Source: Pseudomonas saliphila
GTDB lineage: Bacteria > Pseudomonadota > Gammaproteobacteria > Pseudomonadales > Pseudomonadaceae
Reading direction: 5' to 3'
Length of the DNA: 64,000 nt
Assembly (NCBI RefSeq): GCF_008638345.1
Contig: NZ_VTVA01000005.1
Coordinates: 62,001 to 126,000, forward strand
The position numbers and the translations under genes are program-made. Under the pieces are notes generated by a model. That model did not search any database. It saw only the letters and a program-made list of their open reading frames with translations, and was not told the DNA's origin. This document shows positions 1,883-8,301 of the stretch, in pieces; position 1 is the stretch's first letter; every line of letters starts with the position of its first letter.

Positions 1883-4800
1883 ATGCCCGCCAGTCAGACG
1901 ATTTTACCCCTCGAAAAGTTCAACATTAATAGTGGCAAAGTTGCGTGGGGCCGGCTCGAGGGCGCGGCGCGCGCCCTGGCGATTGCTGAAGCGGCGAGTC
2001 GGCACCAGGGCCTTAGTCTGGTCATTACGCGGGACACCGCAATGGCCGATCGCCTCGAGCGTGAGCTGCGCTTCTTCGCACCCCATCTGCCCGTGCTCAC
2101 TTTTCCCGACTGGGAAACCCTGCCCTATGATCGCTTCTCACCACACCAGGACATCATCTCTCAGCGTTTGAAAACGCTCTACCAGCTGCCCCAGGTCAAT
2201 CAGGGCATTCTCGTCGTCCCGATGACCACCCTGCTCCACCGCATTCCGCCGCGCCCGTTCCTCGGCGGTTCGGTACTGATGATGGAAACCGGTCAGCAGC
2301 TGGATATCGACCGCATGCGTATGAACCTCGATGCCGCCGGTTACCGCTGCGTGGATACGGTCTATGAACATGGCGACTACGCCGTACGCGGTGCGCTACT
2401 GGACTTGTTCCCGATGGGCAGCAAACTGCCCTACCGGATCGACCTGTTCGACGATGAGATCGAGACACTGCGGACCTTCGATCCGGAAACCCAGCGCTCT
2501 ATCGATAAGGTCGAGCGAATCCACCTGCTTCCGGCCCGTGAGTTCCCGCTGGACAAGTCCGCTCTCACCGGCTTTCGCGCGCGCTTTCGCGAACGTTTCT
2601 CGATTGACCATCGTAAGGTACCGCTTTACCAGGACATGTCCGAAGGCTTGATCCCGCCGGGCATCGAATACTACCTGCCGCTGTTTTTCGAGGAACTGGG
2701 AACGCTGTTCGACTATCTCCCCGACAATACGCTGCTATTCAGCGAGCCGGGGATCGAAGCCAGCGCAGAGCAATTCTGGAATGATGTGCGCTCGCGCCAT
2801 CAGGACCAGAGCTTCGACCCGACCCGCCCTCTGCTTCCGCCCGCAGAGCTGTTTCTGACGGTGGAAGACTGCTTCGCCCAGATCAAAGCCTATCCGCGCA
2901 TTGTCTGTCATACCGAAGAGGTAGCGCCTGGCGCCGGTCGCAGCAACCTGCCCTGCGAGGCGCCACCCGAGCTGCCGCTGGACAATAAGCGTGAGCGCCC
3001 GCTGGCGGAACTGGAAAGCTTCCTGCAGGCTTTCGCCGGCCGCGTGCTGTTCACGGCGGATTCGGCCGGGCGCCGGGAAGCCCTGCTCGAACTGCTGTCG
3101 CGCATCGACATCAAGCCGGAACAGTTTGATACCTGGCATGGCTTCACCCAGTCCCAGAGCCCGCTCGGCATTATCGTAGCGCCGGTGGACCAGGGACTGG
3201 TCGTGACTGAGCCGGCGGTTGCGCTGATATCCGAGACCCAGCTGTTCGGCAAACGCGTCATGCAGCGCAGGCGGCGCGGCAAGGTCACCGACCTGGGCGA
3301 TGCGGTGATCCGCAACCTCACCGAACTGCGCGAAGGCGCGCCGGTGGTACATATCGATCACGGTGTCGGACGTTACTGCGGCCTGGTCAATCTGACGATC
3401 GAGGATCAGGAAGCAGAATTTCTCAAGCTGCTCTACGCCGACGAAGCGACGCTCTATGTGCCGGTATCGAACCTGCACCTGATCGCCCGCTACACCGGCT
3501 CGGAAGATGAAAACGCCCCGTTGCACCGGCTCGGCTCGGAGCAATGGCAGAAAGCCCGACGCAAGGCTGCTGAACAGGTGCGTGACGTGGCGGCCGAGTT
3601 GCTCGATGTCTACGCGCGACGCGCAGCGCGCATCGGCTTCAAATTCAGCGAGCCCGAGCATGACTACGAGGCGTTCGCCGATACCTTCCCGTTCGAGGAA
3701 ACGGCGGACCAGCAGGCAGCCATCGAGGCCGTCATCAAGGACATGACCGGCGGTCAGCCGATGGATCGTCTGATCTGCGGCGACGTCGGTTTCGGCAAGA
3801 CCGAGGTGGCCATGCGCGCGGCGTTCGTCGCAGTACACAGCGGCAAACAGGTCGCGGTCCTGGTACCAACGACATTGCTGGCTCAGCAGCACTTCAACAG
3901 TTTCAGCGACCGCTTCGCCGACTGGCCCGTCAAGGTCGAGGTTATGTCGCGCTTCAAGTCCGCCAAGGAGATGAAATCCGCCGTCGCCGAACTGGGTGAC
4001 GGTAAGGTCGACATCATGATCGGCACCCACAAACTGCTGCAGCAAGACATCAGTTTCAAGGATCTGGGGCTGGTGATCATCGATGAAGAACACCGCTTTG
4101 GCGTTCGCCAGAAGGAACAGTTCAAGAAGCTGCGCAGTGAAGTGGACATCCTGACCCTGACCGCCACACCGATTCCGCGAACCCTGAACATGGCAATGTC
4201 GGGCATGCGCGATCTGTCGATCATTGCCACGCCGCCGGCCCGCCGGCTTTCGGTCAAGACCTTCGTCATGCAGCAGCAGCCCGCCGTACTCAAAGAGGCG
4301 ATCCTGCGCGAATTGCTGCGTGGCGGGCAGATCTACTATCTGCACAACGAAGTACAGACAATCGAAAAGTGTGCAGCCGACTTGGCCGAACTGGTACCCG
4401 AAGCGCGCATTGGCGTCAGCCACGGACAGATGCCAGAACGCGCGCTGGAACAAGTGATGCGTGACTTCTATCACCGGCGGTTCAATATCCTGGTCACGAC
4501 AACCATCATCGAGACAGGCATCGACGTCCCCAGCGCCAACACCATCATCATCGAGCGCGCCGACAAGTTCGGCCTGGCTCAATTGCACCAGTTGCGTGGC
4601 CGGGTCGGCCGCAGCCATCACCAGGCCTACGCCTACCTGCTCACCCCCCACGGCAGAAAAGTCACCGGGGATGCGGAGAAGCGCCTTGAAGCCATTGCCA
4701 TGGCGCAGGATCTCGGCGCCGGTTTCACCCTGGCGACCCACGATCTGGAAATTCGCGGAGCTGGCGAGCTGCTCGGCGATGGCCAGAGCGGACAAATTCA

Positions 4801-5368
4801 GGCGGTTGGTTTCACGCTGTATATGGATATGCTGGAGCGCGCGGTCAAAGCGATCCAGAGCGGCAAGGAACCGTCACTGGACAAGCCGCTCGGTGGTGGA
4901 CCGGATATCAACCTGCGTCTGCCAGCCCTGATACCAGACGACTATCTGCCGGACGTACATACCAGACTGATCCTCTACAAGCGCATCGCCAATGCCAACG
5001 ATGAGGATGCATTACGCGACCTGCAGGTAGAGATGATCGATCGCTTCGGCCTGTTGCCAGGACCGGTGAAGACCCTGTTCCGGGTTACCTCGCTCAAATT
5101 GCGTTGCGAGCCGCTGGGGATCTCCAAGGTCGATGTGGGGCCGGAACATGGCAGGGTCGAGTTTGCGGGTGAAACCTCAGTCGACCCACTGGTACTGGTG
5201 CGCCTGATACAGGACAATCCCCAGCGCTATCGACTGGAAGGCGCCACCATGTTTCGTTTCAATGCGCCGATGGCTAATGCTGAGCTGCGGCTCAATACGG
5301 TCGAAGCGCTTATCGAACGGCTGGAGAAGCCGCCGATCGAACCGAAAGCCAAAGGAAAACGCAAATGA
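1883..5368 (+). CDS. mfd: Transcription-repair coupling factor Mfd
   Basis: Mfd is an ATP-driven translocase that removes RNA polymerase stalled at DNA lesions and recruits UvrA. The 1161-residue protein is full length for the family. It has an N-terminal UvrB-like region, the RNA-polymerase-interacting segment around HIDHGVGRYCGL (about 490), Walker A GDVGFGKTE (about 633), the DEEH box VIIDEEHRFG (about 731), helicase motifs through HQLRGRVGRS (about 910), and the C-terminal TRCF domain. Its stop overlaps the start of the next gene by four bases (ATGA), so the two are probably translationally coupled. Confidence 0.98.
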   Translation: MPASQTILPLEKFNINSGKVAWGRLEGAARALAIAEAASRHQGLSLVITRDTAMADRLERELRFFAPHLPVLTFPDWETLPYDRFSPHQDIISQRLKTLYQLPQVNQGILVVPMTTLLHRIPPRPFLGGSVLMMETGQQLDIDRMRMNLDAAGYRCVDTVYEHGDYAVRGALLDLFPMGSKLPYRIDLFDDEIETLRTFDPETQRSIDKVERIHLLPAREFPLDKSALTGFRARFRERFSIDHRKVPLYQDMSEGLIPPGIEYYLPLFFEELGTLFDYLPDNTLLFSEPGIEASAEQFWNDVRSRHQDQSFDPTRPLLPPAELFLTVEDCFAQIKAYPRIVCHTEEVAPGAGRSNLPCEAPPELPLDNKRERPLAELESFLQAFAGRVLFTADSAGRREALLELLSRIDIKPEQFDTWHGFTQSQSPLGIIVAPVDQGLVVTEPAVALISETQLFGKRVMQRRRRGKVTDLGDAVIRNLTELREGAPVVHIDHGVGRYCGLVNLTIEDQEAEFLKLLYADEATLYVPVSNLHLIARYTGSEDENAPLHRLGSEQWQKARRKAAEQVRDVAAELLDVYARRAARIGFKFSEPEHDYEAFADTFPFEETADQQAAIEAVIKDMTGGQPMDRLICGDVGFGKTEVAMRAAFVAVHSGKQVAVLVPTTLLAQQHFNSFSDRFADWPVKVEVMSRFKSAKEMKSAVAELGDGKVDIMIGTHKLLQQDISFKDLGLVIIDEEHRFGVRQKEQFKKLRSEVDILTLTATPIPRTLNMAMSGMRDLSIIATPPARRLSVKTFVMQQQPAVLKEAILRELLRGGQIYYLHNEVQTIEKCAADLAELVPEARIGVSHGQMPERALEQVMRDFYHRRFNILVTTTIIETGIDVPSANTIIIERADKFGLAQLHQLRGRVGRSHHQAYAYLLTPHGRKVTGDAEKRLEAIAMAQDLGAGFTLATHDLEIRGAGELLGDGQSGQIQAVGFTLYMDMLERAVKAIQSGKEPSLDKPLGGGPDINLRLPALIPDDYLPDVHTRLILYKRIANANDEDALRDLQVEMIDRFGLLPGPVKTLFRVTSLKLRCEPLGISKVDVGPEHGRVEFAGETSVDPLVLVRLIQDNPQRYRLEGATMFRFNAPMANAELRLNTVEALIERLEKPPIEPKAKGKRK

Positions 5369-5919
5369 AAACACCCGTCTCTCGCTTGCACGCCATGCTG
5401 TTTCTGCTGATGTGCAGCGTGACATCCCTGGCCAGCGCACAGGACTACATCGTCGAAGTCGTGTTGTTCACCCAACCGAGCAGCCGTATCGTTGCGGGCC
5501 CAGCCCCGGAACTGGACTGGAAAGCTGACGCGGCCGAACTGGACAGCACCACACGGAGCAACGTGCGCCCCATTGATGACTCCCGCCATCGCCTGGCAAA
5601 CGAAGCCAGAAAGCTGTCCGCCCAGGGGTCCAGGATTCTGTTTCACCAAGCCTGGACTCAGCCCGCCGGCACGCCGGTCGCCGTAACCAAAGGGGAAGAC
5701 CTGACTGGCTTCGATTTGTATCCAGTGCAAGGCGTAGTCAGCCTGAGCCGTGACAACACGCTGGAGGCCAACGTCGCCTTCTGGGTTAATCACGAAGCAG
5801 CCTCGATGGATAGCGAGCCGGTCAGCGAACGCTTGAAACAGAGCCGCCGCCTGCGCCCTGACGAAGTTCACTACCTGGATCATCAAAGCCTGGGAATGCT
5901 GATTATCGTTAGCCGCTAG
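5365..5919 (+). CDS. CsiV-family predicted periplasmic protein
   Basis: This 184-residue protein has a signal peptide (hydrophobic core MLFLLMCSVTSLASA, cleavage near residue 25). The mature part fits the CsiV/DUF family: a start of the type YIVEVVLF, a central RILFHQAW block, and a C-terminal EVHYLDHQSLGMLIIV block. CsiV of Vibrio is a peptidoglycan-binding partner of the muramidase-like growth factor system; the role in pseudomonads is not established. It overlaps mfd by four bases. A large non-coding stretch with repeats follows. Family assignment is fairly sure, function is inferred. Confidence 0.75.
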   Translation: MKTPVSRLHAMLFLLMCSVTSLASAQDYIVEVVLFTQPSSRIVAGPAPELDWKADAAELDSTTRSNVRPIDDSRHRLANEARKLSAQGSRILFHQAWTQPAGTPVAVTKGEDLTGFDLYPVQGVVSLSRDNTLEANVAFWVNHEAASMDSEPVSERLKQSRRLRPDEVHYLDHQSLGMLIIVSR

Positions 5920-5932
5920 ACTAAAAGTTGTC

Positions 5933-6209
5933 GGCGACTCCAATCTCCACCGCGGAGCGAGGCGGCAGGGTTGCGCTGACCGTCCGATGACATGGATGTC
6001 ATCGTCGAGCTTACAGGGACGTACTTGCAGCGTGTCAGCGCGGCCCTGTCGCCTCGCGGAAGCTAGCTCAAAACTCATAAATATTGTGCTGCGATTCTGG
6101 AGCTCAGCGCCCGCCAACTGTCAGTGATTGCGCAAGACGCCGTGAACCCGTCCCTGGGGGCTTGACGAAAACATCCCTGTTTTCAACACTTGCTCCACCC
6201 TGACAGCCG
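5933..6209. repeat. Structured intergenic repeat, copy 1
   Basis: This is the first of two tandem, similar copies of about 270 bases. It contains nested inverted repeats: CTCC/GGAG at 5945-5957; 14-base arms GCGAGGCGGCAGGG (5957-5970) and CCCTGTCGCCTCGC (6044-6057); an inner near-perfect palindrome CGATGACAT-GG-ATGTCATCG (5985-6004); and a distal hairpin GAAAAC-N6-GTTTTC (6167-6184). No plausible open reading frame covers it. It may be a structured RNA, a MITE-like or REP-like element, or both; it is not a named family that I can assign with confidence. Confidence 0.8.
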
Positions 6210-6268
6210 ACGGACTCGATCAGGCATAGATGCGGCAGCGAGATTAGAACCGATTTCAAGAACTGGCC

Positions 6269-6532
6269 GGCAACTCCAATCTCCGTGGCGGAGCGAGGCG
6301 ACAGGGTTGCGATGACCGTTCGATGACATGGATGTCATCGCCGAGCTTACAGGGACGTACTGGCAGCGTGTCAGCGCGGCCCTGTCGACTCGCGGAAGCT
6401 AACTCACAACTCACAAATGCTGCGCTGAGACTCCGAAGCTAACCGCCCGCCAGCGCAAGACGCCGTAAACCCATCCATAGGGGCTTGGAGAAAACATCCC
6501 TGTTTTCAACACTTGCTCCACCCTGACAGCCG
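6269..6532. repeat. Structured intergenic repeat, copy 2
   Basis: This is the second copy, with its start offset 336 bases from copy 1 and a small deletion (about 13 bases) in its distal half. The same elements recur: arms GCGAGGCGACAGGG (6293-6306) and CCCTGTCGACTCGC (6380-6393), the palindrome CGATGACAT-GG-ATGTCATCG (6321-6340), the run GAGCTTACAGGGACGTACT, and the AAAACATCCCTGTTTTC hairpin. Substitutions separate the copies, so the duplication is not recent. It ends 24 bases before the 3' end of the methylthioinosine phosphorylase gene. Confidence 0.8.
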
Positions 6533-6556
6533 CGGAAGCAGACTTCAGATCACCGC

Positions 6557-8301
<1,745 letters not shown>

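Follow-up and report, generated by a model that had tools for sequence, protein, structure and literature searches.

YPAL is a repeat of Yersinia and Erwinia described with target-site duplications, and in the same account (PMC2229807) it was proposed to affect the stability of upstream transcripts. According to PMC2847712 it is abundant in Yersinia and has three matches in E. coli, and its sequence is published, as RU-2/YPAL, in Table 1b of PMC2759123. Ysr224 is listed among the most prevalent sRNAs in PMC9029176. For the RNA-binding protein CsrA, PMC7652899 gives the SELEX consensus RUACARGGAUGU with the GGA in a hairpin loop, states that most of the SELEX hairpins have four or fewer contiguous pairs, and describes how one CsrA dimer can bridge two sites separated by 10-63 nt, the best spacing being above 18 nt. 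Here a repeat is described from the window, as we call the whole 64,000-nt stretch of Pseudomonas saliphila analysed, and it is compared with these systems.

Layout of the repeats and their modules

The repeats occupy a gap of 637 nt between csiV (5365-5919, + strand) and a gene for a phosphorylase, here called mtnP, that is read from the - strand and has its end at 6557, so that they sit between the 3' ends of convergent genes. The flanking genes gave Pfam matches to CsiV and PNP_UDP_1, respectively. The original prediction had described two similar stretches, 336 nt apart, filling most of this gap, and self-comparison bore this out, with 87% identity over 192 nt at a spacing of 336 nt and 93% over 80 nt at a spacing of 323 nt. 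The 270-base unit proposed for them stood only in part: the repeated stretches are real, but each consists of two modules, A and B, in opposite orientation. Module A lies on the + strand (5952-6063 and 6288-6399) and module B on the - strand (6109-6215 and 6438-6539). Since the reverse complement of B can be aligned with A along the core, the two are regarded as subtypes of one element. Both fold alike: a long outer stem leads to a three-way junction, from which two hairpins with ANGGA loops, H1 and H2, extend.

Two covariance models were used to delimit the modules: R1, built from 34 copies of the source genome only, and R2, a broader model built from 63 cores. The first copy of A scored 105.6 bits with R1 and had its core placed at 5972-6042 by R2, in agreement with alignment and fold. 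Its outer arms had been predicted to be 14 bases long and are actually 24 nt, the 5' arm at 5957-5980 being complementary to the 3' arm at 6034-6057 and paired with it in the fold. Within this stem are H1 (5985-6004, + strand, loop UGGA), found as an inverted-repeat match and in the fold, and H2 (6011-6023, + strand, UUACAGGGACGUA), read from the sequence and paired in the broad alignment. The first copy of B (R1 107.2 bits, R2 core 6128-6197) has H1 at 6167-6184 (GAAAACAGGGAUGUUUUC on the - strand) and H2 at 6147-6160 (CCCCCAGGGACGGG on the - strand), both read from the sequence and present in the fold. In the second copy of A (R1 100.9 bits, R2 core 6308-6378), H1 was located at 6321-6340 on the + strand by an inverted-repeat match. 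The second copy of B has lost most of one outer arm and scored only 73.2 bits with R1 (R2 core 6451-6520); its H1, at 6490-6507 on the - strand, was read from the sequence and by a direct-repeat match. Both window copies contain the CGATGACAT-GG-ATGTCATCG palindrome as well as the GAAAAC/GTTTTC hairpin and the run of 19 bases noted earlier, and the reported change of a G-U to an A-U pair in the left arm of copy 2, together with one lost pair, was correct on reading the sequence.

In the source genome, where 37 modules were placed by script, the modules usually occur as the inverted pair <B A>, and such pairs can extend into arrays; the copies of the original prediction, taken as A-B, were for this reason out of register. 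The spacer is 69-88 nt in 13 of 14 aligned <B A> pairs and 228 nt in the remaining one. According to the pair alignment, the window has a single complete pair of the usual type, at 6109-6399 with a spacer of 72 nt. At one genomic locus three A and three B modules alternate, the A modules being 365 nt apart.

The region was considered to be non-coding from the beginning, and this call held. Of 82 copies, at most 43 have any given frame open. Four of the six frames are open more often than in shuffles (34, 37, 37 and 43 copies versus 15-18), and this extra openness was attributed to the fixed core. An antisense ORF over the region had no Pfam match, and an open reading frame was therefore rejected as an explanation.

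Family, carriers and spread

The R1 model matched two loci of Yersinia similis, L117 and L167, at E values of 4.8e-8 and 9.5e-9, and these places are RU-2, one identity being 98.2% (167 nt) and the other 99.4% (168 nt). Because a model made from source-genome copies finds the Yersinia RU-2 loci, the window core is the YPAL/RU-2 core. Judged by sequence, the window repeat is a variant of YPAL that is widespread in Gammaproteobacteria and has an inverted pair as its unit, and a family that could not be named at first can now be given a name.

The same core is covered on the opposite strand by the Rfam family Ysr224 (RF02770) in 3 of 18 pattern loci scanned with Rfam, most of them element-bearing (L117, L167 and L123). 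In these three Enterobacterales loci the gathering score of Ysr224 was reached. Over three of the window modules (5979-6405, opposite strand) Ysr224 gave weak matches with E values of 0.25-0.34 and 17.5-18 bits versus a gathering score of 70, and no Rfam family matched the window at its gathering score. Among the weak matches (E up to 5, five in the region), those to SNORD121A and mir-643 were taken as chance. Ysr224 is reported as an expressed RNA, yet it is modelled on the strand opposite the GGA loops, and the family gives the impression of having been derived from a repeat's antisense strand. The name of another candidate, TwoAYGGAY, implies two GGA-containing sites. It is listed in PMC2864571 from human gut, Gammaproteobacteria and Clostridiales, and it was rejected here, having no match in the window or the 18 loci at gathering score nor in the region up to an E value of 5. 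The prevalence count of Ysr224 given in PMC9029176 may in part be a count of the present repeat.

The source genome contains 48 copies by the R1 search and 43 matches by blastn with window positions 5925-6215 as query. As had been supposed from similar runs in intergenic regions of related genera, the family extends beyond this genome, and its copies occur in many Gammaproteobacteria. R1 matched 33 of 58 relatives and R2 matched 34, namely 28 of the 37 genomes in its genus, counting the source genome itself, plus 6 of the remaining 21. The same nine genomes of the genus were free of the element with both models (G002, G006, G010, G013, G016, G021, G032, G033 and G034). The identities of their mtnP to that of the window, 60-64%, are close together and suggest that a single lineage lost the element or lacks it. 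Of 299 genomes drawn evenly from the phylum, R2 matched 17: the own genome, one of the same family, eight of the same order and seven of the same class; none of the 299 matched outside the class of the window. A 27-base pattern from the H2 region was matched at least in Xanthomonas, Stenotrophomonas, Yersinia, Samsonia, Pantoea, Marinobacter and Rheinheimera, and the matches listed also included Idiomarina, Shewanella, Cellvibrio, Sedimenticola and others. Of the 80 pattern loci listed, 78 were searched with R1 (all but L109 and L133), and 40 further stretches of the same scan (L170-L209) were not used. Copy numbers for other genomes are lower bounds, as a part of the candidates was scored.

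Two of these loci deserve separate mention. In Xanthomonas hortorum (L160, 2492-3359) six modules lie on alternating strands and repeat about every 303 nt, those on the - strand being 94 nt and those on the + strand 107 nt long, and the plan of two subtypes in inverted pairs is thereby found beyond the genus of the window. In Halopseudomonas pelagia (L101, 904-975, - strand) one copy has H1 reversed, with the loop AUCCCU on the GGA strand, and R2 also matches the opposite strand nearby (930-999).

The csiV/mtnP neighbourhood is kept in the genus, and 27 such loci were fetched. The element is present in the gap at three of them (own genome, G020 and G023), which belong to three species and hold four, two and four modules, respectively. 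The varying number at one site means that arrays change length. At the other 24 loci the aligned protein ends lie only 1-85 nt apart, and R1 lists no match between them. G020 (L211, 1013-1189) and G023 (L212, 583-759) share about 177 nt more between csiV and the first module, of which only the first 50 nt or so match the source genome. The tandem copies of the window and the variation in array length among three species at the same site would be expected of a local tandem duplication having no family and no constraint; 48 genomic copies, copies across the class and strong covariation refute this explanation, which can practically be dismissed.

The gene context of the copies was classed with a crude ORF caller. 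The best 126 of 135 matches formed 82 clusters, of which 49 could be classed, 17 lying at a locus edge and 16 being excluded because they overlapped a long ORF. Divergent gene pairs are avoided (3 of 49 clusters versus 63 of 235 gaps, Fisher p 0.0013). Single copies in the broad loci showed no sense bias, 10 being sense and 11 antisense.

A repeat dispersed in this manner could be a DNA parasite like a MITE or REPIN, whose hairpins would be recognised as single-stranded DNA by a transposase while the RNA has no role. Dispersed copies, the inverted-pair unit and the arrays resemble REPINs, and YPAL itself is described in PMC2229807 as a mobile repeat with target-site duplications. These duplications are 3-26 bp in YPAL; none could be read here for want of a closely related empty site, the 24 element-free csiV/mtnP gaps being too diverged. 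An empty site was also sought at two further loci and was not found, both being occupied in G020 and G023. By presence and absence there is no link with Y1 (IS200/RAYT-type) transposases, which speaks against the parasite. No Y1 (PF01797) match was found in copy-bearing G022 (100% complete, at least 33 copies), G004 (at least 11) and G015 (at least 23), and Y1 transposases occur in 7 of the 9 element-free genomes of the genus. A Y1 transposase partner was therefore rejected as a present requirement; it may have been present in the past. The elements also differ from the REPIN/RAYT system, as Y1 is absent from some carriers and the module is not a 20-40-bp GTAG-tagged hairpin. With the module A core (5957-6058) as query, blastn gave no plasmid or phage match. 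At one locus of Shewanella gelidimarina (L137) matches to a group II intron (4195-4953 and 3988-4091) start about 100 nt from an element copy; the hairpin may be a landing site for such introns.

The fold and the strand that carries it

Copy 1 of the window folds better than all of 200 dinucleotide shuffles on each strand (z -3.9). The fold of copy 2 is only slightly above shuffles (z -1.6; 15 of 200 were as good). Covariation was assessed in a set derived from the best 126 of 135 matches, with four rows of a Klebsiella-labelled MAG (L163) left out. Below 75% identity 62 were kept, of which 61 had a clear anchor, and the addition of two from the window gave 63 cores. In their MAFFT alignment, made from sequence only, 84.9% of cells pair, and both bases are changed in 342 cells versus 104 in shuffles. 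The covariation score was 0.504 versus 0.143 for shuffles and at most 0.165 with slid partners, the comparison being somewhat favourable as the structure was drawn from the same sequences. The stem of H1 varies freely through compensating changes; its loop does not. A lack of copies and of covariation, set beforehand as the outcome that would make this a local duplication without a family, is ruled out by these counts.

The outer arms are only about 34% identical between copies over the 30 nt adjoining the junction. Each copy nevertheless pairs best with itself: the duplex of a copy's own arms has a mean of -56 kcal/mol versus -26 kcal/mol with arms of other copies, and in 57 of 61 copies the own pairing beats all of 20 cross pairs tried. 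Such very stable stems, in what appears to be a position downstream of genes, are what would be expected of a plain 3'-end stabiliser or terminator, in which the stem shields the upstream mRNA from exonucleases and no binding protein is needed. The influence on upstream transcript stability proposed for YPAL in PMC2229807 fits the same explanation. A stem alone, however, needs neither two invariant GGA loops nor a junction conserved throughout the class, and we consider a plain stabiliser improbable.

Whether RNA or DNA is under constraint can be approached by comparing mismatches of the two types. If the constraint acted purely on a double-stranded palindrome, G-T and A-C should be equally common, since a G-T on one strand is an A-C on the other. 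The arms were aligned with scores that treat G-U and A-C alike, and the 12 nt adjoining the junction were excluded. Alignment A7 comprised 150 of 177 matches; of 230 rows, 228 had full arms and 227 of these were distinct. Among 82 copies below 70% identity there were 101 G-U versus 34 A-C, about 3:1, and G-U was in the majority in 46 copies and A-C in 8 (p 1.4e-7). Over all 227 distinct copies the counts were 287 and 68. A-type copies of three close genomes had the G-U excess at both kinds of pair, G-C (25:7) and A-T (24:8); a simple C-to-T bias does not predict this. In B-type copies, for which the consensus fold includes flanks, the excess was seen at G-C pairs (84:50) and nearly vanished at A-T pairs (26:22). 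Counted by pair positions, the excess is small in both types (14 versus 8 in A, 23 versus 20 in B).

We conclude that the strand bearing the GGA loops has been kept able to fold on its own. The original prediction of a structured RNA or DNA constraint was right as to the constraint, and the count of G-U and A-C narrows it to a single-stranded fold of one strand. An excess of G-U over A-C on one strand points to RNA, the natural reading of foldability restricted to one strand, with single-stranded DNA as an alternative. The DNA parasite gains some ground at this point: G-T would likewise be less disruptive than A-C if one DNA strand were to fold alone, and the scarcity of G-U in H1, 3 of 396 paired cells and low for an RNA helix, suits DNA. 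The parasite does not by itself explain why ANGGA is kept in both loops, and taken together with the transposase survey we regard it as a possible but rather unlikely explanation.

GGA loops and comparison with known systems

GGA is present in 226 of 227 H1 loops and in 225 of 227 H2 loops, and ANGGA in 219 H1 and 224 H2 loops of the 227 copies. A distance of 20 nt between the two GGAs was found in 206 of the 225 copies measured. Against the CsrA consensus, H2 matches a mean of 9.8 of 12 positions (81 copies) and H1 7.8 (80 copies), compared with a background of 5.6 over 7127 GGA sites in the same loci. The score of H2 is partly forced, as the search pattern demanded part of H2; H1 was not demanded. 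The element thus has the sequence features of a CsrA site, with ANGGA in hairpin loops and two sites within bridging distance, and the 7-8 pairs of H1 are more than in most of the CsrA SELEX hairpins. CsrA was found in 34 of 35 carrier genomes, the exception being a 2.3-Mb MAG of Arenicella, and this says little since CsrA is near-universal in this class. From these loops, CsrA/RsmA appears to be the likeliest putative ligand of the YPAL-like repeat RNA. That the two loops form a docking place with two sites for one CsrA/RsmA dimer is proposed tentatively, at something short of an even chance. Conservation of the junction counts against a reading by CsrA alone, as CsrA binding by itself would not need a junction. 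No open-licence paper was found that treats CsrA together with YPAL.

The explanation we favour, though only by a little beyond an even chance, is a YPAL-like mobile repeat that acts as RNA in 3' regions, combining a stem cap with putative CsrA/RsmA docking. Transcription would read through from the upstream gene and the element would act as RNA. An inverted pair, read either way, would yield one module in sense orientation. Protection of the 3' end would come from the outer stem acting as a cap, as has been put forward for YPAL; one CsrA/RsmA dimer would dock at the pair of GGA loops. Tens of copies per genome could tie many 3' ends to CsrA and absorb part of it. The copies would have spread as mobile repeats through some enzyme and multiplied locally into arrays. 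Points that speak against this explanation are the lack of a sense bias among single copies, the scarcity of G-U in H1, the small G-U excess by pair positions, the placing of the Ysr224 model on the other strand and the weak fold of copy 2. A further step is speculative and in our view unlikely: the mobile family may have seeded many gammaproteobacterial genomes with tens of putative two-site docking RNAs in 3' regions, a distributed counterpart of CsrB/RsmZ whose number would help to determine the level of free CsrA and mark the mRNAs that CsrA holds.

If the CsrA reading is true, a global regulator would be buffered by dispersed repeats that vary in number among related species, and models of the Csr/Rsm network would change. 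Even without CsrA, a Yersinia repeat, an Rfam 'sRNA' of the opposite strand and repeats elsewhere would be joined into one family with a testable fold, including those of Halopseudomonas, Xanthomonas, Stenotrophomonas, Marinobacter, Rheinheimera and others. Counts of Ysr224 in genomes should also be taken with caution, as a repeat may be what they record.

Of the systems described, REP/REPIN and TIR elements with their RAYT/TIRYT partners are likewise short and palindromic, often in inverted pairs and mostly downstream of genes (PMC3733652, PMC6006769). REPs measure 20-40 bp and carry a GTAG or CGTC tag at their base, whereas the module here is about 106-112 nt with two inner hairpins and a three-way junction. 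No gammaproteobacterial interspersed repeat with a three-way junction was found in the open-licence literature. The sRNAs of the CsrB/RsmZ type resemble the element in having GGA in hairpin loops and several sites per RNA (PMC7652899). They are dedicated sRNA genes. The YPAL-like element is instead repeated through the genome, with a pair of loops in each module and a three-way junction that is conserved, and its CsrA binding is putative. YPAL/RU-2 has the same core of H1, CGAGC, H2 and the GGCGT junction and is likewise intergenic, multicopy and palindromic (PMC2759123, PMC2229807). RU-2 is described as a 168-bp unit, while here modules of 106-112 nt are usually joined into an inverted pair of about 290 nt. 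The outer stems are unrelated, and the elements here are not units of about 168 bp with their own flanking sequence. New here are the breadth of the family, the inverted-pair unit, the evidence for the strand and the CsrA-like loops.
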